NCBI GenBank assembly: GCA_945873105.1
Contig: CAMCBW010000051.1
Coordinates: forward strand, 1 to 37,515
DNA: 37,515 nucleotides
From: Tangfeifania diversioriginum
GTDB taxonomy: Bacteria; Bacteroidota; Bacteroidia; Bacteroidales; Prolixibacteraceae
Direction of reading: 5' to 3'
Shown here: positions 1,168 through 32,417 of the stretch, piece after piece
How positions within the stretch are numbered: the stretch's first letter is position 1
How the letters are laid out: every line of letters starts with the position of its first letter
The notes under the pieces: generated by a model
The model's input: the letters and a program-made list of their open reading frames with translations, nothing else
Databases searched by the model: none
What the model was told of the DNA's origin: nothing
Position numbers and translations under genes: made by a program

Positions 1168-1202
1168 ACTCTATCTCCAAGTCCCTCCGTCTCTCCGTCA
1201 TT
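1168..1202. repeat. Single-arm degenerate tandem array after hisIE
   Basis: On the his coding strand (minus), a purine-rich run of GGGACTT/GGAGAGAC-like units begins just after the hisIE stop codon at 1204-1206. It belongs to the same vocabulary as the arrays at 1883-1917, 5714-5744 and 26763-26803. No complementary second arm is visible before DUF1460. Confidence 0.55.
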
Positions 1203-1203
1203 C

Positions 1204-1803
1204 TTATTTGTGTCGCTTCTTCAACTCCGTGGCAAGATCGGAGATTGAGTATCCCTTGTGTGAAAGCAATACCATCAAATGGTAGAGCAAATCTGAGGCT
1301 TCATACAAAAGGCGTTCGTCGTTGTTGGCCATGGCTTCAATGACCGTCTCGACTGCTTCTTCCCCCACTTTTTGGGCAATTTTTGCAGTGCCCGACTCAA
1401 ACAGGGAGGTGGTATAGGAACCCTCCGGCATCTCCTTTTTCCTTTTTGCAATAAAATCCTGCAAAGTTTTCAGAAAATAGAAGTCGTCTTTGGGATTGGC
1501 CTCTTCCCAGCATGTATCGGCCCCGGTATGACAAACCGGCCCTACCGGGATTACCTTGATCAACAGGGAATCCTGGTCACAATCGGAGCTGACAGACACC
1601 ACTTTTAAAAAATTTCCGGATTCTTCTCCCTTGGTCCACAGGCGTTTCCGGGTACGGCTGTAAAAAGTTACGTGGCCGTCCAGAACAGTTTTGTTGTAGG
1701 CCTCTTCGTTCATAAACCCCAGCATGAGCACCTTGTTGGTGTGCTGATCCTGGATAATGGCCGGTATCAGACCTGTTGACTCTTTGTTGAAATTGATATA
1801 CAT
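1204..1803 (-). CDS. hisIE: Bifunctional phosphoribosyl-AMP cyclohydrolase / phosphoribosyl-ATP pyrophosphatase
   Basis: The protein catalyses steps 2 and 3 of histidine biosynthesis: hydrolysis of PR-ATP to PR-AMP and opening of the adenine ring to give ProFAR. The 199 residues have the standard fused layout. The N-terminal HisI domain (about 1-105) shows LWTKGEESGN, the metal-binding DCDQD at 74-78 and CHTGADTC at 91-98. The C-terminal HisE domain (about 108-195) shows KVGEEAVE at 145-152 and the helix YEASDLLYHL. All expected metal ligands are present, so both activities should be intact. It is the last his gene, 149 nt after hisF; that gap contains two different short tandem arrays. Confidence 0.97.
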   Translation of the reverse strand: MYINFNKESTGLIPAIIQDQHTNKVLMLGFMNEEAYNKTVLDGHVTFYSRTRKRLWTKGEESGNFLKVVSVSSDCDQDSLLIKVIPVGPVCHTGADTCWEEANPKDDFYFLKTLQDFIAKRKKEMPEGSYTTSLFESGTAKIAQKVGEEAVETVIEAMANNDERLLYEASDLLYHLMVLLSHKGYSISDLATELKKRHK

Positions 1804-1811
1804 CGAAAATA

Positions 1812-1836
1812 AATTACGAATTACAAATTACAAATT
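1812..1836. repeat. AATTACR tandem units before the hisIE start
   Basis: Three consecutive 7-bp units of the form AATTAC(G/A), followed by AATTG, lie directly upstream of the hisIE start codon. Similar words occur immediately before the tlpA start (4783-4797) and before the S37 peptidase gene (26912-26938, ATTCGTG/AATTCGTGT). This suggests a recurring pre-start module. Confidence 0.55.
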
Positions 1837-1882
1837 GTTTGAAAGAGAGATACTTAACACTAAGTAGGCTTATGGCCTTCAG

Positions 1883-1917
1883 GTCCCTCAGTCCCTAAGT
1901 CCCTAAGTCCCTCAGTC
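1883..1917. repeat. GTCCCTMA 8-bp tandem array after hisF
   Basis: Four exact-length 8-bp units GTCCCT(C/A)A lie at 1883, 1891, 1899 and 1907, followed by GTC. Read on the coding (minus) strand they are purine-rich (T-K-AGGGAC), starting about 35 nt after the hisF stop codon. The same word is used after hisB (5714-5744) and after the DUF493 gene (26763-26803). Confidence 0.8.
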
Positions 1918-1952
1918 TGTACCTGTGTTGCTCTTTTCTTACTGTTCAACCA

Positions 1953-2705
1953 TTACCTGACACAAATCCCGGCATTGCGAAGATAACTTTTTAAATCCGG
2001 AATGGCGATCTCTCCGAAGTGGAAAATACTGGCAGCCAGTCCTGCATCCGCCTTGCCAAGTGTGAACATTTCGGAAAAGTGCTCCATGGTGCCTGCTCCA
2101 CCTGATGCAATCAAGGGAATAGTCAGCAGTTCAGAGAGATGTGCCAATGCTTCGTTGGCAAAGCCATTTTTGGTGCCGTCGTGGTTCATGGAGGTAAAGA
2201 GTATCTCCCCGGCACCGCGGTTTTCAGCCTCTTTGGCCCAGGAGAAGAGCTCCTTCCCGGTAGGAATTCTACCTCCATGCATGGTGGCTTCCCAGTGGTT
2301 GTTCTCCTCTTTTGCATCGATGGCAACTACCACAAACTGACTTCCAAAATGAAGTGCCAGGTCGTCGATGAGCCGTGGGTTTTTGATGGCAGATGAGTTG
2401 ATGGAGATTTTATCCGCCCCGGCGGAGAGCAATGCATCTGCATCTTTTAGCTCACTGATGCCACCACCTACCGTAAATGGAATGTTGAGGTTGAAGGCAA
2501 TCCGTTTCACCAGTTCCACGAAGGTCTTTCTTCCTTCGTGGGTAGCAGTGATATCCAGGAAGACCAGTTCGTCGGCGCCCTGTTCCGAATATTGCCTGCC
2601 CAATTCGACAGGGTCTCCTACTTCGCGGATATTGACAAAGTTGATTCCCTTGACGGTTTGACCGTTTCGGATGTCGAGGCAGGGTATGATTCTTTTGCTT
2701 AACAT
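1953..2705 (-). CDS. hisF: Imidazole glycerol phosphate synthase cyclase subunit
   Basis: HisF uses ammonia delivered by HisH to convert PRFAR to imidazole glycerol phosphate and AICAR. The 250-residue protein is a full-length (beta/alpha)8 barrel. The two catalytic aspartates are in place: D11 in the opening strand (IIPCLDI) and D130 in VVVAIDAK. The phosphate-binding glycines are seen as FTVGGGI (77-83) and LIASGGAG. The gene starts 12 nt after hisA, which fits co-translation in the hisH-hisA-hisF block. AICAR made here needs 10-formyl-THF to re-enter purine synthesis, which is the only metabolic link to the purU gene in the same operon. Confidence 0.98.
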
Positions 2706-2717
2706 GATTGAACCAAT

Positions 2718-3455
2718 TTAAGGAAGATGAATGGTGTTGATTCGGCCTAACTCTTCGAGGGTAACCTTCCCTTCGTAGATGGCCTTGCCAACGATAACAG
2801 CAGGAATGCCAATCTTTTCCAGGTCGAGAATATCCTGAAGTGATCCCACTCCACCGCTGGCAATCAAAAAGATCCCGGGATTGTTTTGCAATATCTCTTG
2901 GTAGAGTTCGAGGGAGGGACCTGTGAGCATGCCGTCCCTGCTGATGTCGGTACTGATAACCTGGTCAATTCCCTTCGTCATCCACTGCTGGATAAAGGTG
3001 AAGATGTCGAGTCCGGTCTCTTCGGTCCAGCCGCTAACGGCTATTTTCCGGTCGGCAGCATCGGCGCCAAGGATGATCCGATCCGAGCCATAGGTCTCGA
3101 TCCATTTCCGCATGACTGCGGGTGTTTTGACAGCCACACTTCCACCGGTGATCATGTCTGCACCGGCTTCAAAGGCAATATCCAGGTCTCTGTCACTCTT
3201 CAATCCACCGCCAAAGTCGATGGTAAGGGTAGTGTGAAGCGCAATATTTTCCAGTACCTTATGGTTGACAATGTGGTGCGCTTTGGCACCATCAAGGTCG
3301 ACCAGGTGCAGGCGCTGAAGACCATATGCCTCGAACATTTTGGCTACTTCGAGCGGATCCTCATTGTAGATTGTTTTCCTGCTGTAGTCGCCTTGGCTAA
3401 GTCTGACACATTTTCCATCGATGATGTCAATGGCGGGTATAATTTCGATGCTCAT
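2718..3455 (-). CDS. hisA: ProFAR isomerase (HisA)
   Basis: HisA catalyses the Amadori isomerisation of ProFAR to PRFAR. The open frame extends upstream, but the family start is [19 protein letters not shown], so I place the start at 3455, giving 245 residues, the usual length. The catalytic pair is D10 (PAIDI) and D132 (LGADAAD). DFGGGLKSD (80-88) and LIASGGVGS are phosphate-binding loops. The start codon overlaps the hisH stop as ATGA, so translation of the two is probably coupled. The 62 extra upstream codons are antisense-looking sequence inside hisH and are rejected. Confidence 0.97.
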
Positions 3456-4063
3456 GGTTGAAAAGATAGTTGAAGGAAATTCTCGAGGATCCGGGCTCCG
3501 ACTTTGCCGCTTTTTTCCGGGTGAAACTGTACTGCATAAAAATTGTCTCTTTGAAGGGCTGCGCTGAAGGGGGAAGGATAACTGCACAGAGCAGCAGTGT
3601 CTTTCCCTACAGTGGCATAGTAGGAGTGCACAAAGTAGCAATACTGATCTTCCAGGGTTTGGTCGAACAGGTTACTCTTCAGATTGGAAATGGTATTCCA
3701 CCCCATATGAGGAACCTTCATGGCCGGCAAAAGATCCTGTTGCAATTTGAATTTTTTTATGGTCTCCTCAAAAATACCCAGGCAGGTTACATCCCCCTCC
3801 TCTGAATGACGGCACATCAGCTGCAGACCCAGACAAATGCCTAGAACAGGCTGTTTAAGTTCAGCAATCAGTTGGTCGAGCCGGTGATTTTTCAGATATG
3901 CCATGGTGGTAGAAGCTTCTCCGACTCCCGGAAAGATGACCCTGTCGGCTGACCTGATTTCTGCAGGGTCTGCAGTCACCGAGGCCTCCACCCCGAGCCT
4001 TTTCAAGGCATAATCCACCGATTGTATATTCCCTGCGTTGTATTTGATGATGGCAACTTTCAT
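3452..4063 (-). CDS. hisH: Imidazole glycerol phosphate synthase glutaminase subunit
   Basis: HisH hydrolyses glutamine and channels ammonia to HisF. The 203-residue class-I glutamine amidotransferase has the complete triad: nucleophile C77 in [11 protein letters not shown]181 and E183 in VQFHPEKSG. The oxyanion loop appears as FPGVGEAS (44-51). It overlaps hisA by 4 bp (ATGA). Upstream, 155 nt separate it from the tlpA-like gene, and that gap is filled by an inverted tandem-array element. Confidence 0.98.
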
Positions 4064-4075
4064 GACTGAAATTTA

Positions 4076-4210
4076 TTGTTTGAAATGTTTGAAGGGTTTA
4101 AAATGGTTAAAGGGTTAATGCTTAATATCAATCTGTTAGCTGAATAAATTTATTGATAGCAATAACTTTTCAAACACTTCAAACAAAAAAAACATTTCAA
4201 ACCTTTTTTT
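4076..4210. repeat. Inverted tandem-array element A (GTTTGAA word), tlpA-hisH gap
   Basis: The left arm (about 4076-4116) is built of GTTTGAAATG/GTTTGAAGGG/GTTTAAAATG-like 9-10-bp units. The right arm (about 4164-4210) is its approximate reverse complement, with TTTCAAACACTTCAAAC and CATTTCAAACC. About 47 bp of non-repetitive core lies between. The right arm begins about 10 nt beyond the tlpA stop codon on the coding strand. The same word is used at 28307-28401, 24 kb away. Confidence 0.8.
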
Positions 4211-4218
4211 TAAGATTG

Positions 4219-4782
4219 TTATTTGAGTAAATTGTCGATGACCTTGACCATCTCTGCAAACTCCTCTTCCTTGTAAAGGCGTGTCAGACACACGATCTTG
4301 CCGTTCTTATCTACGATAATGTTACGGGTTACGCCAGCCTTCTTCTCTGCAAACAGGTTGAAGATGCTGCCACCTGGATCGAGTGCCAGCGGGTAGGTCA
4401 CTTTGATATCCTCCTGAAATTTTTTCACTTTTTCGAGTGGTTCGTCCAGATCCACCCCTATCAGGAGAAAGTTCCTGTTGTTCTTGTGTTTTTGCCAGAT
4501 ATCCCTTTCAATGAAGGGCATCTCTTTCCGGCAGACGCTGCACCAGCTGGCGGTAAATTGCAACATCACCACTTTGCCTTTGAAATCGGCTGAAGAAACA
4601 GTCTTCCCATTGATCAGGGTCGTTGAGAATGCAGGTACCTGGTCTCCCAATTTAACGATATAGCCATATTCCGCGGGGACCTCCTTTACGGGGTTTTGGG
4701 CGAAAGAAGCGTGTAAGAGGAGAAACGGAGAAGAGAGAAACAGGGCAACGAAGAGGATTCCCAAAAGAACTTTTCTTTTCAT
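4219..4782 (-). CDS. TlpA-like periplasmic thiol-disulfide oxidoreductase
   Basis: This 187-residue protein begins with a signal peptide (about 1-28, likely cut after SFA). A thioredoxin-fold domain of the TlpA/ResA/AhpC-TSA type follows. The redox-active pair is C81 and C84 in SWCSVCRKEMPF. Other fold marks are VMLQFTASW before the active site and NIIVDKNGKIV near the C terminus. It should act in the cell envelope, probably reducing or transferring disulfides, as in cytochrome c maturation or thiol stress; the target cannot be told from sequence. It starts 15 nt after purU and lies inside the histidine operon, with no evident role in that pathway. Confidence 0.85.
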   Translation of the reverse strand: MKRKVLLGILFVALFLSSPFLLLHASFAQNPVKEVPAEYGYIVKLGDQVPAFSTTLINGKTVSSADFKGKVVMLQFTASWCSVCRKEMPFIERDIWQKHKNNRNFLLIGVDLDEPLEKVKKFQEDIKVTYPLALDPGGSIFNLFAEKKAGVTRNIIVDKNGKIVCLTRLYKEEEFAEMVKVIDNLLK

Positions 4783-4797
4783 GTAATTCGTAATTTT

Positions 4798-5670: not shown

Positions 5671-5675
5671 ATTTT

Positions 5676-5747
5676 AAAGATTTTCGATTTTAGATTTAAG
5701 GAGTCGGGATCTCCATGTCCCTTAGTCTCCCAGTCCCTAAGTCTTTC
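5676..5747. repeat. hisB-purU spacer: AGGGACT array plus AATCTAAAATCGAAAA box
   Basis: On the coding strand, a purine-rich array of ACTTAGGGACTGGGAGACT-type units (5744 down to 5714) begins about 6 nt after the hisB stop. Closer to purU is the box AATCTAAAATCGAAAA (plus-strand complement at 5681-5696). Exactly the same 16-nt box occurs on the other strand of the window at 26953-26968, again just upstream of a start codon and again downstream of a GGGACTAAG array. Confidence 0.7.
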
Positions 5748-5749
5748 AT

Positions 5750-6874: not shown

Positions 6875-6890
6875 TCAGTTAAGAGTTGTT

Positions 6891-7031
6891 TAATTCGACA
6901 ATTTGCTACTTTGACAATTCGACAATGATTGGTGTATCAGTAAGGTGGAAATTAATGATAATCTGCTATTTCTATTTATCATAACAATTTTTCCATCACA
7001 CCAATTGTCGAATTGTCGAATCATCACATTT
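6891..7031. repeat. Inverted tandem-array element B (AATTCGACA word), hisC-hisB gap
   Basis: The left arm (6891-6934) contains AATTCGACAATTTG and CAATTCGACAATGATTGGTG. The right arm (about 6997-7022) is CACCAATTGTCGAATTGTCG, the reverse complement of the left-arm core. The spacer core is about 60 bp. A second word, CACATTTTCACATTTTCC, borders the right arm and runs into the last codons of hisC. Confidence 0.8.
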
Positions 7032-8081: not shown

Positions 8082-8099
8082 GCTTTGTCATAATTATAA

Positions 8100-8264
8100 T
8101 TGGGAAATGTGGAAATGTGGAAATGTGAAAATTTGGAAATGTGAAAATTTGGAAATTAAGAACGCCATTGCGTTGATTTACTAGGTTTTAAGTTGAAATA
8201 TTTACTTGATTCTTGCATCTGCTCTTTTTAATTTTCATATTTCCACATTTCCACATTTCCACAT
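8100..8264. repeat. Inverted tandem-array element C (GGAAATGT word), hisD-hisC gap
   Basis: The left arm (8100-8157) is a run of GGAAATGT and GAAAATTT 8-bp units. The right arm (about 8228-8264) is the reverse complement, TTCCACATTTCCACATTTCC. A core of about 70 bp (8158-8227) separates them. The right arm touches the hisD stop codon: on the coding strand it reads TAA followed at once by TGTGGAAATGTGG. This occupies the whole gap between the two genes. The same word recurs at 26322-26463. Confidence 0.88.
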
Positions 8265-9541
8265 TATTTTTTGATTCTGATGGTGACGGCATTCCTGTGA
8301 GCTTGCAGTAGTTCCGCTTCTGCCATGGTTTCGATAACCGGCCCCAGTTGCTGCAGACCAGCTTCTGAGATTTCCTGGTAGGTAATTTTCTTGCAAAAAC
8401 TCTCCAGGTTGAGGCCGCTTACTGCTCGAGCCCAGCCATTGGTGGGCAGGGTGTGGTTGGTACCTGAAGCGTAATCTCCCGCACTTTCCGGGGTATAGTG
8501 GCCGATGAAGACGGAGCCTGCATTCCTGACATGTTCTGCCAGTTGGGGCGCATTTTCAGTCTGAAGGATCAGGTGTTCGGGAGCGTAGAGGTTGATCAGC
8601 TCCATCACCACTTCCATGGAACTGAGCAGTACCATCCGGCTGTTGGAGAGGGCGGCAGCAGCTGTCTCCTTGCGGGGAAGTTGTTCCAGCTGTTTCGCCA
8701 GTTCTTCCGAGACTCTTTCGATCAAAGTGGCTTCTGTGGTGAGAAATAGCACCTGGCTATCAGGCCCATGTTCGGCTTGAGAAAGCAGATCGGAGGCCAC
8801 AAAAGCAGGATTGGCTGATCGATCGGCAACTACCGCCAATTCAGAAGGACCTGCCGGCATATCTATCGCACAGGTGTTGAGGGAAACATATTGTTTGGCA
8901 GCAGTTACCCATGCGTTCCCCGGGCCAAATATCTTGTCTACTTTTGGAACAGATTCAGTTCCATAGGCCATGGCCCCGATGGCCTGAATTCCGCCAATTT
9001 TGAATACTTTGGTTACTTTGCAAAGGTTGGCGGCAAAGAGAATCGCCGGATGAACCTTCCCCTCAGCGTTGGGAGGAGAACAGAGGATAACCTCCCTGCA
9101 ACCCGCTATCATCGCCGGTAAGGCAAGCATTAGTACCGTGGAGAAGAGGGGAGCGGAACCACCGGGAATGTACAAACCTACTTTGTCGATGGCTACACTT
9201 TTTTGCCAGCATCTTACTCCCGGATAGGTCTCAATGACCTTGACAGCTGTTTGTTGCCCCTCGTGAAAAGTCCGTATGTTGGTAGCCGCTGAAACGATAG
9301 CCTGGGCCAGGGCAGGTGAGATTTTGGATTCAGCTTGTGCCAGATCAGTTTCGGTAACCTGAAGCTGTTCGGGCTGGGTTTTGTCGAATTTGGAAGTAAA
9401 CTCCCTGACGGCTTCATCTCCCCGCTTACGAATGGCCTGCATGACCTCCTCCACTACCGCCTGTTTGTCAGAATAATCAGTGGTAGCCCTGACAATTAGT
9501 GAGTTCCAACTTTCTTGGGGGGGGTATCGGAAGACTTTCAT
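8264..9541 (-). CDS. hisD: Histidinol dehydrogenase
   Basis: HisD performs the last two oxidations, histidinol to histidine, using NAD+ and a zinc ion. The 425-residue protein has all family landmarks: VGLYIPGGSAPLFSTVLM, the IFGPGNAWVTAAKQ loop, IDMPAGPSE, the zinc-site region LLSQAEHGPDSQ, APEHLIL with the catalytic Glu-His pair, and GDYASGTNHTLPT. It starts 9 nt after hisG, so the two form the tight head of the operon. Downstream, the stop codon abuts a palindromic array. Confidence 0.98.
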   Translation of the reverse strand: MKVFRYPPQESWNSLIVRATTDYSDKQAVVEEVMQAIRKRGDEAVREFTSKFDKTQPEQLQVTETDLAQAESKISPALAQAIVSAATNIRTFHEGQQTAVKVIETYPGVRCWQKSVAIDKVGLYIPGGSAPLFSTVLMLALPAMIAGCREVILCSPPNAEGKVHPAILFAANLCKVTKVFKIGGIQAIGAMAYGTESVPKVDKIFGPGNAWVTAAKQYVSLNTCAIDMPAGPSELAVVADRSANPAFVASDLLSQAEHGPDSQVLFLTTEATLIERVSEELAKQLEQLPRKETAAAALSNSRMVLLSSMEVVMELINLYAPEHLILQTENAPQLAEHVRNAGSVFIGHYTPESAGDYASGTNHTLPTNGWARAVSGLNLESFCKKITYQEISEAGLQQLGPVIETMAEAELLQAHRNAVTIRIKK

Positions 9542-9550
9542 AATGCCTGG

Positions 9551-10411: not shown

Positions 10412-10427
10412 GTAATTTAAAATAAGA

Positions 10428-10549: not shown

Positions 10550-10623
10550 TTTATAATCTTTCTGCAATGATAGGTAAAAAAATGATAGGTATGAAGTGTA
10601 AATGTGAATTATTTGTTACCAAA

Positions 10624-10740
10624 GCAAGTGACTAAAGTGACTATAGTGAGCTAAAGTGACTAAAGTATATTGCTGCGAGCCTGATTTGCTTTTAACCATA
10701 ACTTGCCTGACTTTCGTCATTTTAGTCACTCTGGTCAATT
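10624..10740. repeat. Inverted tandem-array element D (AGTGACTAA word)
   Basis: The left arm (about 10626-10668) repeats AGTGACTAA/AGTGACTAT/GTGAGCTAA. The right arm (about 10707-10740) reads GTCATTTTAGTCACTCTGGTC, the reverse complement with a few changes. The core is about 40 bp. This is the only one of the inverted elements that lies in a divergent gap and not after a stop codon. Confidence 0.75.
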
Positions 10741-10974
10741 GTTTTTTCAATGATAATCCTGTTTTGAGTCCGAAAATAAAGCAGGCCAAGGCGATCGTTA
10801 GCTAAGTTTTTTGCGGCACGATTTATGGTTTTTTGGTCCGTAAATAATTGTTTTTATAGCCATGAAATAATTCATTTTCGCGCTATCTAAGTTGAAATTT
10901 CCAGGACAAATGGATCAGATCTTGAATAAAGGACTAAAGGGTCTTAATTAAATTATATTTCTACTGAATTTTTC

Positions 10975-24796: not shown

Positions 24797-24823
24797 AATG
24801 GAAAATTTATGGTTGTTGTGCTG

Positions 24824-24831: not shown

Positions 24832-24866
24832 CGTCCGTTGGGGAATCAATTGTCAGAATATGCCAA

Positions 24867-24900
24867 TAACTTTTCCAAAGTTTTGAATTTGGAAAAGTTA
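24867..24900. repeat. 13-bp perfect hairpin in the divergent helicase/T9SS gap
   Basis: The stem TAACTTTTCCAAA pairs perfectly with TTTGGAAAAGTTA across an 8-nt loop. A partial third copy, ACTTTGAAAAGTTAG, lies about 20 nt to the right. It sits between two divergent promoters, so it may be an operator or an RNA hairpin in one leader. It has no T-tract. Confidence 0.6.
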
Positions 24901-24957
24901 GTAACGCAAGAGTTTAGTACTTTGAAAAGTTAGCAGCTAAATCGAACAAAATTATGC

Positions 24958-24987
24958 TTGGTCAGGCCGGATAGTTGTTTAAATTTG
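24958..24987 (+). promoter_or_regulatory. Bacteroidota -33/-7 promoter for the T9SS-sorted protein gene
   Basis: TTG at 24958-24960, a 19-nt spacer and TAAATTTG at 24980-24987 match the TTG-N19-TAnnTTTG consensus exactly. The start codon is at 25023, leaving a short leader of about 30 nt. Confidence 0.6.
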
Positions 24988-25022
24988 TAAGCTGGTTGGT
25001 ATACCTCTTTCAAGACACGCAC

Positions 25023-26321
25023 ATGAGATTTTTAGCTTTTTTGGTCCTGTTGGTTTGGTTGACTGTTTTTTCCTCCATGGAGAAGCTGCAAGCGCAGTCA
25101 CTCGCCCCGGGGAATGCCAACAAGCAGGAAACTACGGCCTATCCAACCTTTCCCATCAATGATCCGATCTACTTTTTTTGTACTCAACAGGGGGTCAATG
25201 CTGCCTCATTGACAGCAAAATCAGCTGGTACGACGGTCTCCTTTCTTTGGGAAAAATATGATCCCCAGACTTTGAAATTTCAAATTTTTTCGAACGAGGC
25301 AGCCCCCGTTTCTACCATCAGCAATCTGACAGATGGTTGCTACAGAGTTACTTTTGCGGAGAGCGGACAGAGTTTTCAATACCGGGCCTGGGTAATGAAT
25401 GGCTGGCTAGCGCCGGTTGCAGCCATTTCGCAGTCCACCTGCACGGTTTTGAAGCTGACTTCGGCTGTTACAGGGGCATCCTACCAATATTTTGACCTCA
25501 CCACCGGCAAGCCGGTTCAGCTGAACCCTGACTACAAATACCGCTGGTACTCCGGAGCCACCTATTTCACGGCACTGCAAAACCCAACCATTGCACCACC
25601 ACCCTCCAAAAATATTGTTTACAAGGTCGAGGTCACCGACCGTTCAGGATGTATGAGAAGCTCCCAGGTAGATTATACTTCACCGGTTCCCATTGCCAAT
25701 TTTTCCTGGAGTACACCCCAGCAAAATGATCCGCAGTATGTATTTCCCCAGGCACCCGCAAACATTGACTTCAAGAATCTGAGCGAAAACAGTGATCCAG
25801 GCAAGTATGAATGGTACCTCTTCAAGGAGAAGGAGATTCTCGCCGCAATGGGGAGCGGAACCGCTGCCATCGACTCCTTTCAGGATGTATTGTACGATGA
25901 AAACCCACTTTACACCTATTACCTCTCCGGTAAATACAAGGTCAAGCTGGTGGCTTCAAAAACCGTTCAGTCGCTGACCTGCCGCGATACCTTCTATCTC
26001 CCCGATTACATCATCGTGGATACCTCCCTTGTAAAGGTGGCCCCGGTTTTTACCCCTAACGGGGATGGTGTCAATGACAAACTGATTTTGAAGACCAGGT
26101 CACTCGAAACTTTAAGCTTTACTGTATTGAATCGTTGGGGGAAGGTGGTACATCAGTTTTCCTCCAATAATTACATTCCCGATGAGTCGGAATTTGCTGC
26201 CTGGGATGGCACTGTAAACGGAAAACTGTGCGCACCTGGCGTCTATTTTTATGTGGTGGATGCCCGAGGAAGGGATGGGGAGCGACGGCGATCGAAGGGG
26301 TTTGTGGAAATGATCTGGTAA
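25023..26321 (+). CDS. Secreted protein with gliding-motility-associated (T9SS type B) C-terminal domain
   Basis: From the ATG at 25023 this is a 432-residue protein. It has a signal peptide (about 1-25, LQAQS), a central region with PKD/Ig-like beta strands (for example YKVEVTDRSGCMRSSQVDY and PANIDFKNLSENSDPGKYEW), and a C-terminal CHU_C domain (about 342-432). The latter starts at VAPVFTPNGDGVNDKLILK and ends with GVYFYVVDARGRDGERRRSKGFVEMIW. This domain is an established type IX secretion sorting signal, so the protein should be exported across the outer membrane and attached or released. Residues upstream of the ATG are not needed. Its stop codon abuts a palindromic repeat. Confidence 0.88.
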   Translation: MRFLAFLVLLVWLTVFSSMEKLQAQSLAPGNANKQETTAYPTFPINDPIYFFCTQQGVNAASLTAKSAGTTVSFLWEKYDPQTLKFQIFSNEAAPVSTISNLTDGCYRVTFAESGQSFQYRAWVMNGWLAPVAAISQSTCTVLKLTSAVTGASYQYFDLTTGKPVQLNPDYKYRWYSGATYFTALQNPTIAPPPSKNIVYKVEVTDRSGCMRSSQVDYTSPVPIANFSWSTPQQNDPQYVFPQAPANIDFKNLSENSDPGKYEWYLFKEKEILAAMGSGTAAIDSFQDVLYDENPLYTYYLSGKYKVKLVASKTVQSLTCRDTFYLPDYIIVDTSLVKVAPVFTPNGDGVNDKLILKTRSLETLSFTVLNRWGKVVHQFSSNNYIPDESEFAAWDGTVNGKLCAPGVYFYVVDARGRDGERRRSKGFVEMIW

Positions 26322-26463
26322 TGTGAAAGTTGGGAAATGTGAAAATGTGAAAATGAGGTTTTTGTGAAAGTGGAATTATCGTTTCTTATTTGCTTAGGTT
26401 TAGAGCTGAATAGTTGAGTGTAGCGCAATTTCCACATTTTCACATTTCCCAATTTTCACATTC
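26322..26463. repeat. Inverted tandem-array element E (GGAAATGTGAAA word)
   Basis: The left arm (26319-26359) reads AATGTGAAAGTTGGG then AATGTGAAAATGTGAAAATG. The right arm (26429-26463) is its reverse complement, TTTCCACATTTTCACATTTCC then AATTTTCACATTC, with about four mismatches over 38 bp. A core of about 69 bp lies between. The left arm begins exactly at the TAA of the T9SS protein gene, and the right arm ends 20 nt before the next start. Confidence 0.88.
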
Positions 26464-26483
26464 TTTAAATAGTTAACTAATTT

Positions 26484-26753
26484 ATGGATAAAGAACTAGA
26501 AAATGCCAGAAGCATACTCTGGGCCCAGCAACAGTGGCCGGGGATCTATTTCTTCAAGTTTATCGTGCCCAATGACAAGGATAAATTGGAACTGGTCAGA
26601 AAATTGTTCCAATTTGAGGATCAGATAACCTATCGAACCTCCAAGGACATCCGGTTTATTTCACTTTCCTGCAAGCAGGAGATGAAGAACCCGGATGAGG
26701 TGCTGGCAATCTATCAAAAAGCCGGGGAGATTGAAGGGGTGATTTCGCTTTGA
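26484..26753 (+). CDS. DUF493 family protein
   Basis: This small 89-residue protein is of the DUF493 (YbeD-like) family, which has an ACT-like ferredoxin fold. The recognised pattern is WPGIYFFKFIVPNDKDKLELVRKLF followed by a basic/serine strand (TSKDIRFISLSCKQEMKNPDEVLAIYQKA) and a closing VISL strand. A regulatory, ligand- or protein-binding role is assumed in the family, with no enzymatic residues. The gene is bracketed on both sides by inverted-array elements E and H, so it looks like an independent cassette. Confidence 0.85.
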   Translation: MDKELENARSILWAQQQWPGIYFFKFIVPNDKDKLELVRKLFQFEDQITYRTSKDIRFISLSCKQEMKNPDEVLAIYQKAGEIEGVISL

Positions 26754-26759
26754 GAAGGT

Positions 26760-26968
26760 CTATGGGACTAAGGGACCAAGGGACTGGGAGACATAGGGAC
26801 TAAGAAGACCTGGAGCGTGTTGCATTGGAAGTTTGTAGGTTTCATAGAGCGTTATGAAGGAAAACTAATGCAGATTTAATGCTCTCCCCAAGTCTCCCAA
26901 TCTTTCCTGATAAATTCGTGCAATTCGTGTAATTTGTGGTTTGGAGGGGTTTAATCTAAAATCGAAAA
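26760..26968. repeat. Composite repeat region H between DUF493 and S37 peptidase
   Basis: A purine-rich array (26763-26803) of GGGACTAAG/GGGACCAAG/GGGACTGGGAGACATA units follows the DUF493 stop by about 10 nt. A partial reverse-complement arm, CTCCCCAAGTCTCCCAATC, lies at about 26883-26901. Next come ATTCGTGCAATTCGTGTAATT units (26914-26935) and the box AATCTAAAATCGAAAA (26953-26968), ending 10 nt before the next start codon. No gene is visible in this 225-bp gap. Confidence 0.7.
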
Positions 26969-26978
26969 CAGTTAAGAA

Positions 26979-28286
26979 ATGAATCATACCAGTTTTAAAT
27001 CATCGTGGGGGCGTTTGGCCCTTTTGCTACTATTATTTCTTGCATTTCAGTCGCTTGTTGCGCAATCTCTGCAGGTGCGGATCAAGGCATTGCCCGGTAT
27101 CATCTCGGTAGAGAAGTTGGAGCAAAATGGCTTCTTCAGTGAAGCCTATGTTGTCAATGTCAAACAGCCAATCGACCATATGCATCCTGATAAGGGGAGT
27201 TTTTCGCAACGGGTATTTGTTTCGCACCTGGCCTATGACCGTCCTGTCGTTTTCATCACCGAGGGTTATGGCGGCGGTTATGCAGCAAGCAGCAGGCACC
27301 TGAATGAGCTTTGCCCCTTGCTGAAAGCCAATCAGCTCTTTGTCGAGCACCGCTATTTTGGGAAATCGATTCCTGAAGTTGTCGATTGGGCCGACTTGAC
27401 TGTAGAGAATGCAGCCGCAGATCAGCACCATGTAGTGGAACTTTTCAAAAGTATCTACAACCAGAAGTGGGTGAGTACGGGCATTAGCAAGGGAGGGGAG
27501 ACTGCCCTCTACCACCGGACACTTTATCCGGATGATGTAGCAGTTACAGTGCCTTATGTGGCTCCCCTTAACTTCGCCGTAGAGGAGCAACGGCATCCCC
27601 ATTTTATTGAAAAAGAGGTTGCTACCAAAAAGGAGCGCAAAATGGTAAAAGAGTTTCAAATGGAGGTGTTGAAACGAAAGGATCAATTGATGCCGCTGTT
27701 CGAAAAACTTTGCAAAGAGAAAAAATATCAGTTTAAAGCTCCTGTAAGAGAGATCTATGACTATTCAGTCCTGGAGTTTTCCTTCTCTTTCTGGCAGTGG
27801 GGCCATTCGGTGAAAGAGATTCCTCTCTTGACTTCGACCGACAAGGAGATTTTTGATTATTTCCAAAAGGTAAGCTCCTGCAGTTATTTTGACATCGAAA
27901 GCGGAAAGGCCAACATGCCATTCTTTGTACAGGCACACCGGCAACTTGGTTATTACGCATACAATCCAAAACCCTTTAAAAAGGTGATAGAAACCAAAGA
28001 TATGCGTGGTTACATCGAAAAATTGTTTTTGGAGAAGGCGCAGGTTTTTCCACACGATCCGTCCATGAGCAAGCTGAACGACGAGTATCTGAAGAGCTCA
28101 GCTACCAATGTCCTGCTGATTTATGGCGGAATCGACCCATGGTCAGCATCTGCGGCTACAGGGGGAAAGAACCCAGGGGTAGTAAAGTTTGTACAACCGG
28201 GAGGCAGCCACAAAACCCGCATCTCCACCATGCCAGAGCCCATGAAACAACAAGCGATCGATACACTTAACGAGTGGCTAAAGTAG
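26979..28286 (+). CDS. Secreted S37-type (PS-10) serine peptidase
   Basis: This 435-residue alpha/beta-hydrolase peptidase begins with a signal peptide (about 1-29, LVAQS). It matches the S37 / PS-10 family, known for tripeptidyl aminopeptidases of Streptomyces. The probable triad is S170 in STGISKGGETALYH, D386 in YGGIDPWSAS and H411 in QPGGSHKTR. An oxyanion-type loop is seen at TEGYGGGYAAS (95-105), and VEHRYFGKS is a further family mark. It likely trims peptides in the periplasm or outside the cell. It converges on ovoA with a palindromic element between the two stops. Confidence 0.88.
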   Translation: MNHTSFKSSWGRLALLLLLFLAFQSLVAQSLQVRIKALPGIISVEKLEQNGFFSEAYVVNVKQPIDHMHPDKGSFSQRVFVSHLAYDRPVVFITEGYGGGYAASSRHLNELCPLLKANQLFVEHRYFGKSIPEVVDWADLTVENAAADQHHVVELFKSIYNQKWVSTGISKGGETALYHRTLYPDDVAVTVPYVAPLNFAVEEQRHPHFIEKEVATKKERKMVKEFQMEVLKRKDQLMPLFEKLCKEKKYQFKAPVREIYDYSVLEFSFSFWQWGHSVKEIPLLTSTDKEIFDYFQKVSSCSYFDIESGKANMPFFVQAHRQLGYYAYNPKPFKKVIETKDMRGYIEKLFLEKAQVFPHDPSMSKLNDEYLKSSATNVLLIYGGIDPWSASAATGGKNPGVVKFVQPGGSHKTRISTMPEPMKQQAIDTLNEWLK

Positions 28287-28306
28287 AATATTTCAGCAAG
28301 TAGGTA

Positions 28307-28401
28307 TTTGTTTGAAGGGTTTGAAATGTTTAAAAGTTTGAAATGTTGTGGCTGCTAACACTTCAAACCACACAAACATTTCAAACCCTTCAAACAATTT
28401 T
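28307..28401. repeat. Inverted tandem-array element F (GTTTGAA word), convergent S37/ovoA gap
   Basis: The left arm (28307-28350) reads TTTGTTTGAAGGGTTTGAAA, then TGTTTAAAAGTTTGAAATG. The right arm (28357-28401) is the reverse complement, with TTTGAAATGTTTG and GTTTGAAGGG recognisable. The core is only about 6-10 bp, so the whole forms a near-continuous hairpin of over 40 bp per arm. Its position between two converging genes would suit a bidirectional terminator. The word is the same as in element A (4076-4210). Confidence 0.88.
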
Positions 28402-28405
28402 GCTT

Positions 28406-30514
28406 TTACCGCTTCTTCCAGACCGACACCTCTATCTGTTTTAAAATGGATTTCCGTTTGTTGACCCTGAAAACGGAAGGCAGGGTTGTCGTTTGTCCAG
28501 TTTTGGTAAAGTGCTCTTTCAACAATTCTTCCAGTGTTTCCATCCCGCGTACAGGTTCAGCGGAGCTTCGGTAACCACCCAGCCAGTTTTCGGGTTTTGT
28601 GTACTTTTCGTCCCAGTCCCAGGCGGTTGCCACAACCAGGATTCCACCATCGTTCATCCGGCGGTAAAGTTGTGATAGTAGCTCTTTGGGCTGATAGATC
28701 CGGTCGACGATGTCATTCAGGAGTACCAGGTCATATCCGCTGAAGACATTCTTCAGGTTGCTAAAATCGGATTGCAGGAATTTAACCTTTCCGACGAGTG
28801 GTTTCAAGTCGAAATCATCCAGGGTTACCTGGCGGTAATCGCACACTTCACCCTCTTCCGGGAAGGTGTAGTTGAACCGTCCCTGTTCCTGAAGCTGTGA
28901 CGCAATGCGTATGGTTCTTGCAGAAAGATCCACTCCTGTGACATTTTGAAAAGTACGGGCCAGCTCCCAGCTACTTCGGCCGGTCTTGCAACCCATGTCC
29001 AGTGCGCAGCGCTGATATCCGTCAACGGACACATTGGAGCAGAAATCAGCAATTGCTTTTTGGAAATTTGGGATGCCTTCCGAATTGGCGCCGTAATGCG
29101 TTTCGCAATATTGGATGACCTCCGGATCTGTTTCATAGCCTTGGTCTTTGATGACAACTTCCTGGTAAGAGGATACATAGCGGAATCCGGCATGCTGGTA
29201 GAAGTGCCTTCTGAAGGCATACCTGGAATTGCGGATGGCTTCGTTTCCTGTTGAAATCCAGGATCCTCCCTTGATCATGTTGTGCCGCAGATCGAAGGTT
29301 GGGGTAGAGAAATCATCGTAGGAGGGATGAATCTTGAACCCTTCGTATCCAGAGATGGGTGTTTCGGTCCACTGCCAGACATTGCCAACCAGATCGTAAT
29401 ACTCGCCAAAGGCAAAGTGATTTACCGGACAGGGGCTTTGGTAATGCTCGAGATTGATGTTGCCGGGGGCTTTTTCCCACTCGGGCACATCAGGTATATT
29501 GGCCCGATCGCGGAGCAGATACCACTCCTCTTCGGTCATCAGCCGGATGGGCAATCCTGTTTTTTCGGCTTTCCAGTTGCAAAAGGCTTTGGCTTCCAGG
29601 TAATTGACTTCAACCGGCCAGTTCCAGGGCATCTCTACCTCTTCAAAAACCAATCTTAATTTGAAATTGTCCCCTTGTTTGCGCCAGAAAACGGGATGTT
29701 CTGCCTTGGCAAAATTCCTCCAGCGCCATCCCTCTTCTGTCCAGAAATGTTCGGTTTGATAACCCTTGTTGTGGATGAATTCAAGATATTCTCCGTTGGA
29801 GCACAACATGGAGGCGGCTTCGAAAGGTTCAATAACAGCCTGGTGAATGCCATATTCATTGTCCCAACCGTAAAGGGAATCCTCAAATTTCTTGCCCAGT
29901 TTAATGGTGCCTCCGTTTGCTTTGATCAGTTTGTTGGCTGGTGCCGGTGCGGCCAAATTGCAGGTTTTCCAACCGTTGATCGGTTTTAGGTATTCCAGTG
30001 GAAGCTGGCGAATGAGGACAGAAGAGGTTTCGATGTGGATCCTGGAGTGTTCGATACCCATCAGGATGATCCAGATGGGATCCTCCCAGCGTATGGGCAA
30101 CTGGATGGGCAGCGTCTCAATCAAATGGACCACCGTTTCAAATACCTGATCCCGGTAGGCTTTTACCTCCTCTACGGAAGGCCATTTGTAATTGCTTTGG
30201 TTGAGGTCGTCCCACGACATTTCATCTACCCCGATGGCAAACATGGATTCAAACCTGGGATTGATCCTATCTTCCAATATTTTGGAAATCACAAGTTTGT
30301 TGATGTAAAATGCAGCGGTGTGGCCATAATAGAAGATCAGGGGGTGGCGCAGGGGATCAGCGGTCCGGTACATTCCGTCTGTGTCAGCAAATACCTCAAA
30401 CAGGTGTTCATCCAGACGGTAACTATTCTTGAAATAGGTGAGGATTTCAGCCCTTTTTTGTTCGGGGTTTCCAGAGTCCAATAGGATGGTTCTGGTTAGG
30501 AAACGGGGATCCAT
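28406..30514 (-). CDS. ovoA: 5-histidylcysteine sulfoxide synthase / 4-mercaptohistidine N-methyltransferase
   Basis: OvoA is the key enzyme of ovothiol A synthesis, an iron-dependent oxidative coupling of Cys and His followed, through its methyltransferase domain, by N-methylation. I start it at MDPRFLTRTI (30514), giving 702 residues; the longer frame runs into the upstream gene. The order is a DinB-like domain with iron ligands H65 (YYGHTAAFY), H156 and H160 plus E162 (HSRIHIE), and a FGE-sulfatase domain (about 195-450, with GNVWQWTE and GGSWISTGNEAIRNS). The SAM methyltransferase follows (about 500-702, LDMGCKTGRSSWELA). The layout is typical of OvoA. The lyase OvoB that cleaves the sulfoxide is not in the window. 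Confidence 0.93.
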   Translation of the reverse strand: MDPRFLTRTILLDSGNPEQKRAEILTYFKNSYRLDEHLFEVFADTDGMYRTADPLRHPLIFYYGHTAAFYINKLVISKILEDRINPRFESMFAIGVDEMSWDDLNQSNYKWPSVEEVKAYRDQVFETVVHLIETLPIQLPIRWEDPIWIILMGIEHSRIHIETSSVLIRQLPLEYLKPINGWKTCNLAAPAPANKLIKANGGTIKLGKKFEDSLYGWDNEYGIHQAVIEPFEAASMLCSNGEYLEFIHNKGYQTEHFWTEEGWRWRNFAKAEHPVFWRKQGDNFKLRLVFEEVEMPWNWPVEVNYLEAKAFCNWKAEKTGLPIRLMTEEEWYLLRDRANIPDVPEWEKAPGNINLEHYQSPCPVNHFAFGEYYDLVGNVWQWTETPISGYEGFKIHPSYDDFSTPTFDLRHNMIKGGSWISTGNEAIRNSRYAFRRHFYQHAGFRYVSSYQEVVIKDQGYETDPEVIQYCETHYGANSEGIPNFQKAIADFCSNVSVDGYQRCALDMGCKTGRSSWELARTFQNVTGVDLSARTIRIASQLQEQGRFNYTFPEEGEVCDYRQVTLDDFDLKPLVGKVKFLQSDFSNLKNVFSGYDLVLLNDIVDRIYQPKELLSQLYRRMNDGGILVVATAWDWDEKYTKPENWLGGYRSSAEPVRGMETLEELLKEHFTKTGQTTTLPSVFRVNKRKSILKQIEVSVWKKR

Positions 30515-30533
30515 ATACTTAAGATAAAAGGAT

Positions 30534-31067
30534 TTATAAATATTTTCCGACCTCTTTTTTAAGGTCCGACAAGGCCAATGCCACCGGAGCGGGATTTTCT
30601 CCCATATAATTGACAAAGATCTTTTTGCTGAGTTCATAAGCTGAACCATCTGGATCCACCTCTTCTGCCGACCTGTTGATCAGCACGATGAGCTTCTCCT
30701 TGGCTCCCTTGATCGTTTCCCAAAGCAGGGGTGAAACATAGATTTGCTGGGAGAGGTTGTGCTCATATTCCTGCCTGATCGTTGTAAGCAATAATTTGTG
30801 GTATTGGGCTGCAGACAAATCCTGTGGGGACTGCCTGACCAGCATCGATTCGGGGGAAATTCTTTCGAGAAAAAGCGTCAGTCGTTCGTAGGACTGTAGT
30901 TTTATGGGGGTCATCTCTTTGGCATGCAGTACTTTGAATTCAAATTCCCTTCTGCGCTTGTCATTTTCGAGCATGTCGTGAAAGAGGAAATAGGCTGTAA
31001 TAAAAACGATCAAAGCCGGCAGGACAATTTTCAGAATTTCATAAAATCCGTTGATATCGTTGGCCAT
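30534..31067 (-). CDS. DUF7935-like membrane-anchored protein
   Basis: This is a 177-residue protein with one N-terminal membrane helix (about 10-30, ILKIVLPALIVFITAYFLF). A charged, helical cytoplasmic domain follows. The segments TPIKLQSYERLTLFLERISPESML, QEYEHNLSQQIYVSP and WETIKGAKEKLIVLINRSAEEV match a widespread Bacteroidota family of unknown function that I recall as DUF7935. It lies 19 nt upstream of ovoA and 48 nt downstream of the small membrane-protein gene, so the three are probably one operon. Confidence 0.75.
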   Translation of the reverse strand: MANDINGFYEILKIVLPALIVFITAYFLFHDMLENDKRRREFEFKVLHAKEMTPIKLQSYERLTLFLERISPESMLVRQSPQDLSAAQYHKLLLTTIRQEYEHNLSQQIYVSPLLWETIKGAKEKLIVLINRSAEEVDPDGSAYELSKKIFVNYMGENPAPVALALSDLKKEVGKYL

Positions 31068-31115
31068 AGATTGTCTTATTTAATTGTATATATGTTGGAT
31101 AAGTACGTTGAACTT

Positions 31116-31508
31116 TTACTTGGGTTTCTGCAGCAGTCCGTAGAATTGAAAAAATTGAATCGAGAAGAAAAAAATCGTGAGCACTGCCAAAAGCAGGTAT
31201 CTTCTTTTTTTGAAATAGAAAAAAAGAAGGGAGGCAAGTGCCAAAAAAGCACCGGCAACATTGAGCCATCCGGAAGCAATGAGCAATTCTGCCGTCTCTT
31301 TCAAAGGAGCATTGTCCACAAATTGGGCTGCATTAATTTGAAACAGATTGCAAAAGAGGGAGAACAAACCGGTAGCCATCAGTACCCCCCATCCGGAATA
31401 GGTGAAGCCGGCTTTTTTGTCCACAAATCCTATGATAACCAATGCTATGCCAATGAAAATTCCCCAGGATGGGATGAGCATTGGAAGATAAAGTTCAGAA
31501 CTCTGCAT
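31116..31508 (-). CDS. Small multi-pass membrane protein
   Basis: This is a 130-residue, very hydrophobic protein with about four membrane helices (near 8-27, 38-57, 76-98 and 103-123) and short basic loops (FFYFKKRRYLLLA). There is no motif I recognise. It is the first gene of the likely operon with the DUF7935-like gene and ovoA. No function is proposed. Confidence 0.65.
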   Translation of the reverse strand: MQSSELYLPMLIPSWGIFIGIALVIIGFVDKKAGFTYSGWGVLMATGLFSLFCNLFQINAAQFVDNAPLKETAELLIASGWLNVAGAFLALASLLFFYFKKRRYLLLAVLTIFFFSIQFFQFYGLLQKPK

Positions 31509-31638
31509 GACGTAATCAGATTAAATTGATGGCTGATTTTGAAGATGCAAATTAGCAAAATATAGTGGATGATGTTGATCCATTTCCCTTGAAAATGAAG
31601 ATTACAGTTTTATATACTGCTGTTGAGGGCTAATTCAT

Positions 31639-31646
31639 TATTTTTG
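31639..31646 (+). promoter_or_regulatory. Candidate -7 promoter element before the HAD gene
   Basis: TATTTTTG is an exact match to TAnnTTTG, 20 nt before the ATG at 31667. No TTG is found at the ideal -33 position, so confidence is modest. Confidence 0.4.
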
Positions 31647-31666
31647 CTGAAAATTAAATATTGCCG

Positions 31667-32266
31667 ATGTTGACAAAACAAGTTTTATCTGTTGATCCAA
31701 GGGCCAAGGGTCTGATATTTGACATTGATGGCACCATTTCTGATACCATGTCTATTCATTTGCTGGCCTACCAGCAGACTGCCGCAGAGTATGGTTTTGA
31801 GATCACATCAGAAGTTTTCTACAGCATGGCCGGGGTTCCTGCTTATCAGACCAGTTTGAAGCTGAAGGAGAAATTCAAAATAGATTTTGATCCTCAGGTA
31901 TTTGCAGATAGAAAAGAGTACTATTTTCTCCAGAATATTCACAAGGCAGCAGCCATTCAACCCGTGATTAAAATTATTGAGGAGTACGCCGGAAAGTTGC
32001 CCATGGCTTGTGGCACCGGTGGTACCCGGTTTTATGCCAACAAGACCCTGGAGCTGGCAGGTGTCAGGAATCATTTCGAACACATTGTTACGGCGGAGGA
32101 TGTGGAAAACCACAAGCCTCATCCGGATACTTTTTTGCGGGCAGCCGAATTGATTGGTGTCGATCCGGAATATTGCCAGGTTTTTGAAGATAGTCCGCTG
32201 GGTATCCAGGCCGCTGAAACTGCAGGGATGATTGCCACGGATATTACACCTTTCTTGCAAGGTTAA
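31667..32266 (+). CDS. HAD-superfamily phosphatase, beta-phosphoglucomutase/YqaB-like
   Basis: From the ATG at 31667 this is a 199-residue HAD subfamily IA hydrolase. Motif I is FDIDGTISDT with D19 and D21. The threonine/serine motif II region is ACGTGGT, the lysine lies in NHKPHPDTF and motif III is FEDSPLGIQAA. The helical cap (about 33-100) and DTMSIH after motif I resemble YqaB-type fructose-1-phosphate or sugar-phosphate phosphatases. The substrate is a guess. The stop codon TAA lies inside the first unit of repeat element G, so the last Gly codon belongs to the array. Confidence 0.87.
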   Translation: MLTKQVLSVDPRAKGLIFDIDGTISDTMSIHLLAYQQTAAEYGFEITSEVFYSMAGVPAYQTSLKLKEKFKIDFDPQVFADRKEYYFLQNIHKAAAIQPVIKIIEEYAGKLPMACGTGGTRFYANKTLELAGVRNHFEHIVTAEDVENHKPHPDTFLRAAELIGVDPEYCQVFEDSPLGIQAAETAGMIATDITPFLQG

Positions 32267-32417
32267 AGGATAAAGGATAAAGGTTAAAGGTTAAAGGGAA
32301 GAAAACTACAATCAGTGTCTTTGAGGGTATATGTATTAATTTTTCAAGTTAATTTAAGTACATCATGTGGGGCTCACTTTAACCTTTAACCTTTATCCTT
32401 TAACCTTTATCCCTCTT
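32259..32417. repeat. Inverted tandem-array element G (AAAGGTT/AAAGGAT word)
   Basis: The left arm (32259-32301) is built of 7-bp units AAAGGTT and AAAGGAT. The right arm (32378-32417) is the reverse complement, TTTAACCTTTAACCTTTATCC. A core of about 76 bp separates them. The HAD stop codon lies in the first unit, and uvrB begins 18 nt after the right arm, so the element fills the whole gap. Confidence 0.9.

Follow-up and report, generated by a model that had tools for sequence, protein, structure and literature searches.

Palindromes of short tandem words between the genes of Tangfeifania diversioriginum: a reused vocabulary of families resembling non-autonomous mobile elements

How does a bacterial genome come to carry, in one intergenic gap after another, a tandem array of short words that faces its own reverse complement across a small core? 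The question is raised by a stretch of DNA from the Bacteroidota species Tangfeifania diversioriginum, here called the window, which comprises all 37,515 nucleotides analysed (assembly GCA_945873105.1, contig CAMCBW010000051.1, positions 1 to 37,515) and is contig C51 of a source genome (G000) of 5.36 Mb in 99 contigs. A sequence-only reading described eleven loci in the window, alike in architecture and with a different word at each locus, whose arms must have been written together or co-corrected. On balance, and with moderate confidence, we regard these loci as copies or eroded remains of non-autonomous palindromic elements that have moved as units, similar to miniature inverted-repeat transposable elements (MITEs) or repetitive extragenic palindromes (REPs). 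Such an element would consist of a G-rich word array, a core and an inverted copy of that array. Each arm would be some 25-60 bp long and built from words of 7-10 bp, the core would span about 5-170 bp, and at least eleven families would coexist in the genome.

The words are a genome-wide vocabulary that is reused, and they are not specific to single loci. Our sample of the source genome contained 1,034,343 bases (1.03 Mb, 19% of the genome, contigs taken in order), and the gene calls behind all statistics are those of our own open reading frame (ORF) caller. An inverted score of at least 16 was reached in 72 of 410 gaps. In a smaller sample 45 of 253 gaps held an inverted pair, compared with 1.5 in shuffled sequence, and 40 of 253 had an inverted score of at least 18, compared with none. 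Tandem scores of at least 14 occurred in 35 of 279 gaps from 637,515 bases, where shuffles gave an expectation of 0.2, and in none of 1500 coding chunks from the same sample; the periods of the 35 gaps were 7 (15 gaps), 8 (16), 9 (3) and 12 (1). Eleven word families cover 54 of the 72 inverted gaps: F1 (AGTGCCTAA) and F2 (AAATGTGG) with 12 loci each, F4 (AAAGGAT) with 6, F3 (GTTTGAAA), F11 and F12 with 5 each, F9 with 4, F10 with 2, and F5, F7 and F8 with 1 each. At least two of these assignments are other hairpins on inspection (L091 1181 under F1 and L089 17287 under F4), and ordinary hairpins and repeats of other kinds are among the 18 inverted gaps in which no family word was recognised. 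Most of the top over-represented intergenic 9-mers are family words. Exact pattern matches in the whole genome number 97 for F1, 116 for F2 and 34 for F9, counts that divergent words escape, and reversed-pattern controls have no match in the source genome; with up to two mismatches the F2 pattern occurs 316 times and its reverse 8 times. The claim of a different word at each locus is therefore replaced by one of families with tens of copies each.

This reuse bears on a purely local origin, in which slippage would make the words and template switching at quasi-palindromes would make the second arm, separately at each locus. The arms do vary in the number and order of their units, slippage would account for long runs such as the 14 F7 units of the sister genome G007, and a bias toward heptamers has been attributed to polymerase slippage in the accessible parts of two reports (PMC4692102, PMC4679880). 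Identical words at tens of loci per genome are not what such a process would leave, and the shared vocabulary makes us consider local origin alone highly unlikely.

Whole palindromes are present or absent between relatives as units. The comparison drew on seven genomes of the same genus (G001-G007), some gaps being located in only part of them, and array densities for G002-G007 are overestimates, since the regions they are based on were selected. The gene names used here (the his genes, purU, thioredoxin-like and uvrB-like) are putative; the his operon lies on the minus strand of the window. The gap that follows gene 24975-26321 (gap 25077-26484) measures 12 bp in G001 and 22 bp in G005. It is filled by an F2 palindrome in G000, by F8 and F12 words in G002, by a one-armed F2 array in G006 and by F7/F15 words in G007, each of the four inserts starting no more than 3 nt from the TAA stop. 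Here the replacement of one family by another at a fixed gap is directly observed. Gap 28406-30534 is 19 bp long in G000 and holds F11 palindromes in G002 and G004, in opposite orientations. The hisF-hisA gap is 7-14 bp long in six genomes, and the two gaps hisF-hisA and hisA-hisH (the latter in four genomes) range over 0-14 bp, with the exception of G002, where they reach 330 and 264 bp and contain, by eye, CACAGAG-type sequence. An F1 palindrome occupies a 207-bp gap of G000 that corresponds to gaps of 18-45 bp in four sisters. Other palindromes are common to sister species: F4 before the uvrB-like gene (locus 32259), where the arms and the inner ends GTGAGCCCC / GAACGC recur, F2 in the hisD-hisC gap (four genomes), and F1 at a single divergent gap (five genomes). 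Because the empty alleles are short, we infer gain rather than loss as the direction of change. Since sister species have a given gap in both empty and filled form, the question of what moves or writes the palindromes would also become testable.

The two arms of a locus usually have one origin. The G-rich arm lies to the left of the C-rich arm in 44 of 45 gaps, and in 38 of these 44 both arms belong to one family, where 9.0 were expected and the maximum in 5000 shuffles was 18; terminal inverted repeats around a core, as in a MITE, are thus present. The proposal that the arms were written together holds to this extent. Continued co-correction did not emerge from the sister species: the left and right arms of one species matched with a mean of 27.0, and pairing a left arm with the right arm of another species at the same locus gave 26.1 (24 cases at seven loci, own arm higher in 12, p=0.35), in a test whose power is limited by the likeness of the words. 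The two F1 loci alone lean toward their own arm (27.2 vs 24.1 and 32.7 vs 28.7). The cores of four F2 copies are exactly 26 nt long and share the scaffold GATCSC-N6-CAAATG-N7-A, and several F1 and F4 cores start near GGACTCC.

Two further regularities were considered and dropped. The sequence GAAGAACGC, noticed in relatives as a candidate general core motif, has only 3 intergenic places (9 in total) in the 1.03-Mb sample. A mirror order of word variants was sought in the arms, and the arm's own partner was the best match at 4 of 12 F1, 4 of 12 F2, 0 of 5 F3 and 3 of 6 F4 loci.

Arrays lie close to gene ends and have a strong polarity. The median distance from stop codon to array is 11.5 nt (n=116) and from array to start codon 47.5 nt (n=92), and 21 of 116 arrays overlap the stop; the stop-codon anchoring first noticed in the window is seen again in this larger sample. 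The final codons and stop of hisC consist of F2-like words, and some other genes likewise end in array words. Arrays are present in 22 of 45 convergent gaps, an enrichment when set beside the 72 of 365 among co-directional gaps and the 10 of 57 among divergent ones. The G-rich strand is mostly directed out of the gene, and this includes unpaired arrays: of those in co-directional gaps, 47 of 57 on the stop side and 7 of 32 on the start side have more G than C in the coding strand (Fisher p=2e-8, two ties omitted). Gaps without arrays are little skewed, with 1406 G and 1262 C after stops and 1371 G and 1447 C before starts. Stops in all three frames occur within 32 nt in 22 of 61 arrays read in the sense direction and in 5 of 61 read antisense (17:0 discordant, p=1.5e-5), compared with 0.16 in shuffles.

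The position past stop codons and the enrichment in convergent gaps could also be expected if the palindromes were transcription terminators or hairpins protecting mRNA 3' ends, maintained by selection for RNA pairing, and in two convergent gaps (27075-28406 for G005 and the L091 gap after 8228 for G001) a sister species has a hairpin that looks terminator-like by eye at the place of the word palindrome of other genomes. The arms themselves do not behave like paired RNA. Their mismatches comprise 59 G-U, 63 A-C and 162 other pairs at 52 co-directional loci (p=0.79), and 13 G-U and 12 A-C at convergent ones, in a count that omitted loci with arms longer than 70 nt or with little tandem structure; a tRNA control of 10 tRNAs gave 3 G-U and 1 A-C, too few for calibration. 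Selection for mRNA hairpins, one of the mechanisms suggested at the outset, is disfavoured by this absence of a G-U bias and by the absence of clear arm co-evolution between species. Palindromes are also found within the his operon, where termination would do harm, and in divergent gaps. Arrays and terminator-like hairpins do not exclude each other in the convergent gaps of our own sample, the hairpins being present in 3 of 20 gaps with an array and 2 of 23 without (p=0.65). We think a function in mRNA a rather unlikely cause of the palindromes.

Classical REP elements are GC-rich hairpins that adjoin genes for REP-associated tyrosine transposases (RAYTs), and they also form bacterial interspersed mosaic elements (BIMEs). 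Like them, the palindromes described here are dispersed and intergenic, and the source genome has six Y1_Tnp genes (PF01797). The gaps beside these six genes (L255-L260, 3.3-kb loci inspected by eye) hold other repeats, mostly GC-rich hairpins, and the word arrays of F1-F4 and F6-F9 were not seen there. We hold it to be most improbable that the loci are REP/BIME sequences moved by RAYT transposases. At L260 short AATAAGGT / ACCTTATT words stand on both sides of the transposase gene, and at L258 a CTTGGTG-word palindrome lies one gene away from it; in view of these two loci, RAYT-like genes may still be linked to some word family.

The explanation that we favour, palindromic elements with word-array arms, would have whole palindromes gained or lost at a gap, and the same gap in sister species may hold another family. 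Movement would be by transposition or copy-insertion, and slippage would later lengthen or shorten the arms or erode one of them. Placement at gene ends might partly reflect a survival filter. An insert just past a stop codon would do little harm, and since outward G-rich words carry stops in many frames, an insert that cuts off the last codons would soon end the reading frame.

Several observations weigh against this explanation. Divergent gaps carry arrays about as often as co-directional gaps (the 10 of 57 and 72 of 365 given above), and at the stricter tandem score the figures are 3 of 44 and 24 of 203. A survival filter against promoter regions is consequently not clearly shown and should not be leaned on far. 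Unpaired arms are common, with 57 on the stop side and 34 on the start side of co-directional gaps, and erosion must be invoked for them. The cores of F1 and of the long-core F2 loci are mostly dissimilar between loci, which is surprising if they are recent copies of a single element. Inspection of the filled and empty pairs by eye brought out no obvious target-site duplication, and no mobilising gene was identified in profile searches limited to PF01797 and PF00078. The sample consists of the first contigs and is non-random, and the word families were set by eye using the same data on which they were tested. In a convergent gap of G001 the arrays of the two sides consist of unlike words and keep the outward layout, an arrangement that one insertion would not produce, and in G002 an F12 pair surrounds an F3 remnant, the reverse of what an insertion into an F3 palindrome would produce.

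The last two gaps fit better with a process of end-addition, which we keep as a rival for that reason. An intergenic break would have G-rich words added to its 3' ends, as by telomerase, and the ends would be rejoined, giving outward arms on both sides of the old spacer. The outward rule in most unpaired arrays, with no such skew in array-free gaps, would follow, as would the retention of the layout when the arms in one gap have different words. The fixed 26-nt F2 cores with their conserved scaffold are unexpected from rejoined ends, and the G002 allele of gap 28406-30534 has a compact palindrome beside the retained spacer. A reverse transcriptase as the writer of the arms found no candidate, as the source genome has 0 matches to RVT_1 (PF00078), the one reverse transcriptase model searched. 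We judge end-addition unlikely. A broader proposal is that one trans-acting system, patchily spread over several phyla, writes or inserts G-rich words of 7-10 bp that run outward from the edges of genes, in a telomere-like manner, at broken or inserted intergenic DNA, with a vocabulary that varies by genome (G001 having its own) and a constant outward layout; to this we would give a small probability, slightly below that of end-addition.

For the window, each locus was compared with dinucleotide shuffles of its own gap (100 for inversion and 200 for tandem structure). The arrays proved to be real and their coordinates were reproduced, as follows.

1181..1199, minus strand: single array of family F13/F6 (GACGGAGGGAC on the coding strand), 4 nt past the hisIE stop; tandem score 8.5, reached by 3 of 200 shuffles and thus marginal
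1883..1917, minus strand: single array of family F6 (GGGACTTA on the coding strand), 35 nt past the hisF stop; tandem score 22.0, reached by 0 of 200 shuffles
4077..4116, plus strand: F3 arm (TGTTTGAAA), adjoining the hisH start; inverted score 22, reached by 0 of 100 shuffles
4164..4206, minus strand: inverted F3 arm, 12 nt from the stop of the thioredoxin-like gene 4219-4782
5679..5744, minus strand: F6 array past the hisB stop and F8 array (GATTTTCGATTTTAG) at the start of the purU-like gene; unlike words, no palindrome
6900..6926, plus strand: F7 arm (AATTCGACA), near the hisB start; inverted score 17, reached by 0 of 100 shuffles
7004..7030, minus strand: inverted F7 arm, adjoining the hisC stop
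8103..8157, plus strand: F2 arm (GGAAATGT), near the hisC start; tandem score 29.5 and inverted score 29, neither reached by shuffles
8230..8265, minus strand: inverted F2 arm, extending to the hisD stop
10621..10666, plus strand: F1 arm (AGTGACTAA) in a divergent gap, upstream of hisG; inverted score 20, reached by 0 of 100 shuffles
10701..10745, minus strand: inverted F1 arm in the divergent gap, partner of 10621..10666
26320..26355, plus strand: F2 arm (TAATGTGAA), starting at the TAA stop of gene 24975-26321; inverted score 29, reached by 0 of 100 shuffles
26428..26462, minus strand: inverted F2 arm, 21 nt ahead of the next start codon
26757..26805, plus strand: F6 array, 3 nt past the stop of gene 26484-26753; tandem score 12.5, reached by 0 of 200 shuffles
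26885-26902: possible weak second arm of the 26757..26805 array; inverted score 12, reached by 1 of 100 shuffles
28308..28347, plus strand: F3 arm in a convergent gap, past the stop of gene 26979-28286; inverted score 27, reached by 0 of 100 shuffles
28357..28397, minus strand: inverted F3 arm, adjoining the stop of gene 28406-30649
32259..32299, plus strand: F4 arm (AAGGTTA), with the TAA of gene 31661-32266 within its first words; tandem score 27.0 and inverted score 33, reached by no shuffle
32374..32412, minus strand: inverted F4 arm, upstream of the uvrB-like gene 32435-34462

Eight of the loci had been described as palindromes. Seven of them (4076, 6891, 8100, 10624, 26322, 28307 and 32259) exceed all 100 shuffles in inverted score, and the eighth, 26760, is borderline (1 of 100). 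Loci 1168, 1883 and 5714 have no inverted partner, as had been said of them, and at ten of the eleven loci a stop codon is overlapped by the array or is 0-35 nt away, whereas 10624 lies in a divergent gap. The tandem signal is above all 200 shuffles at eight of the eleven loci (1883, 5714, 8100, 10624, 26322, 26760, 28307 and 32259) and marginal at 1168 and 4076 (3 of 200 each) and at 6891 (1 of 200). At 5714 the top tandem is the second word, GATTTTCGATTTTAG (5679-5700), and not the GGGACTAA-type array named earlier. Loci within the window already have words in common: AAATGTGG at 8100 and 26322, GTTTGAA at 4076 and 28307, and the GGGACTAA/GACGGAG type at 1168, 1883, 5714 and 26760.

The vocabulary is concentrated in the genus. 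When F1, F2 and F9 were sought in 41 genomes, they were present in 7, 6 and 7 of the eight genus genomes, G001 having none of the three, and among 33 other genomes of the family or order only G022 (F1, 3 matches) and G026 (F9, 2 matches) had any. That unrelated words should be abundant in one genus and nearly absent from these other relatives counts in favour of end-addition. G001 has arrays of other words (5 in 79,719 bases), placed outward in the gaps that were read. The source genome has 95 arrays in 1,034,343 bases, compared with 9 in 318,792 bases from thirteen genomes of other genera in the family, some of the nine being simple or coding-like, and 0 in 217,515 bases of shuffled sequence. 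Among 198 genomes drawn from the class, F1 was found in two, one of them the source genome.

Contigs whose labels name other phyla also contain F1 arrays. An exact F1 array scan of 84,980 species genomes, the only word scanned in this way, gave at least 111 stretches, 80 of which were examined; their taxon labels are record titles, mostly of metagenome-assembled genomes. Of these 80 listed stretches, 41 are titled outside Bacteroidota: 26 Desulfobacterota/Deltaproteobacteria, 6 Planctomycetota (among which we count the Anammoxibacter and Phycisphaerae titles), 3 Pseudomonadota, 2 Chlorobiota and one each of Poribacteria, Calditrichia, Nitrospirae and Acidobacteria. One of the Pseudomonadota stretches (L162) and the Acidobacteria one (L210) have GC-rich surroundings and look like chance or another repeat; with both set aside, seven phyla outside Bacteroidota remain by title among the matches listed. 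The mixture of 9- and 10-bp units recurs in the F1 arrays of contigs labelled as other phyla, among the matches listed, which counts against a purely local origin. Inverted partner words lie within 300 bp downstream in 20 of the 80 listed arrays and upstream in none, the order seen in G000. At the listed loci 49 array ends read AGTT or GTT, of which GTT was demanded by the search, and the following bases are weakly alike. The occurrence of F1 in these contigs suggests that such DNA spreads by a route not yet described. Three stretches in viral contigs (L252-L254) have the F1 pattern; these contigs could transport it from host to host, or could be host DNA classed as viral by mistake; the F2 pattern had 0 matches in viral contigs, and one F2 locus searched against phage records had no match. 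In a Desulfobulbaceae contig (L146) CACAGAG/CTCTGTG words of F12 type lie between F1 arms, and families may thus be nested outside Bacteroidota as well.

The closest precedent comes from heptamers of the GGGAATC or GGGGA(C/T)T type in Xanthomonas, with others in Nostoc, which are intergenic and tandem, in some cases over a stop codon; two Xanthomonas genomes have 70 and 75 inverted convergent pairs, and Nostoc few (Rehm et al. 2015, PMC4692102). The accessible part of that report describes array lengths that vary between relatives, arrays that are under-represented where ORFs diverge and, in general, no association with mobile elements. The likeness extends to short tandem words, intergenic position, stop overlap, inverted pairs and varying length among relatives, and the layout is the same here, with a sense G-rich array past the stop, an antisense G-rich array before the start, and inverted pairs. 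As far as the accessible text goes, Xanthomonas and Nostoc have one type of G-quadruplex word per organism, whereas we find at least eleven words in one genome, many of them by eye without a run of three or more G, along with word replacement at orthologous gaps, sharing with contigs labelled as other phyla and no clear depletion in divergent gaps. The TAACTGA repeats, patchy in gamma-proteobacteria, cyanobacteria and Bacteroidetes, are likewise intergenic heptamer arrays with stops in all frames (MacGregor 2015, PMC4679880); in the accessible text they are direct repeats of one word (one indirect repeat is noted) and lie mostly just upstream of starts. BrickBuilt of Porphyromonas gingivalis is a MITE with internal tandem units and, like the palindromes here, a dispersed intergenic non-autonomous element with inverted ends, but according to the portion of the paper at hand its 23-nt units lie between small inverted ends (PMC4596501), whereas here the 7-10-bp units are themselves the inverted arms. 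Cyanobacterial heptanucleotides are mentioned in PMC4692102. They are tandem heptamers like those described here, likened by description only. The tandem heptanucleotides of Calothrix are known as short tandemly repeated repetitive (STRR) sequences. REP/BIME sequences share dispersal, intergenic position and palindromy with the loci here, and differ in that the main word arrays were not seen beside the six RAYT-like genes.

A literature search whose coverage excluded most subscription papers returned no paper describing such a vocabulary of many words, and nothing relevant for six of the word strings themselves. The initial statement, which knew of no published element with this layout, has to yield to the GGGAATC precedent (PMC4692102, in its accessible part) for a single word. 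The multi-word vocabulary, the turnover of words and the wide sharing appear to be new. If our explanation is correct, a good part of the spacers in these genomes would be a turnover zone of many palindromic families forming an unnamed class, and one of its words (F1) would be found, among the matches listed, in contigs that bear the labels of seven phyla other than Bacteroidota. The reports of GGGAATC, TAACTGA and cyanobacterial heptamers would then be united as one phenomenon with a polarity rule.

Three other kinds of repeat were encountered in the same DNA. A palindromic family of 240-260 bp, with CACAGAG words and a GCGATTTTC centre, is found at L084 4314, L085 15308, L110 15827 and L114 259; its copies are 62-81% alike between loci, in either orientation, and it looks like a true MITE. 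A hairpin of the ACCTAAAGTGC...GCACTTTAGGT type at L091 1181-1388 and its orthologs is kept in six genomes, follows a short ORF that is absent from the gene calls (MPSGKKRKRHKMATHKRKKRLRKNRHKKKK, by manual translation) and is conserved in sequence, in contrast to the word palindromes. At the contig end, window positions 1-195 hold 3.3 copies of 59-bp tandem units (TCCCTTCGGCTTCGCTCAGGGACC...) that are 98% alike, and a TCGGCTTCGCTC palindromic sequence at L086 12711 resembles this array.

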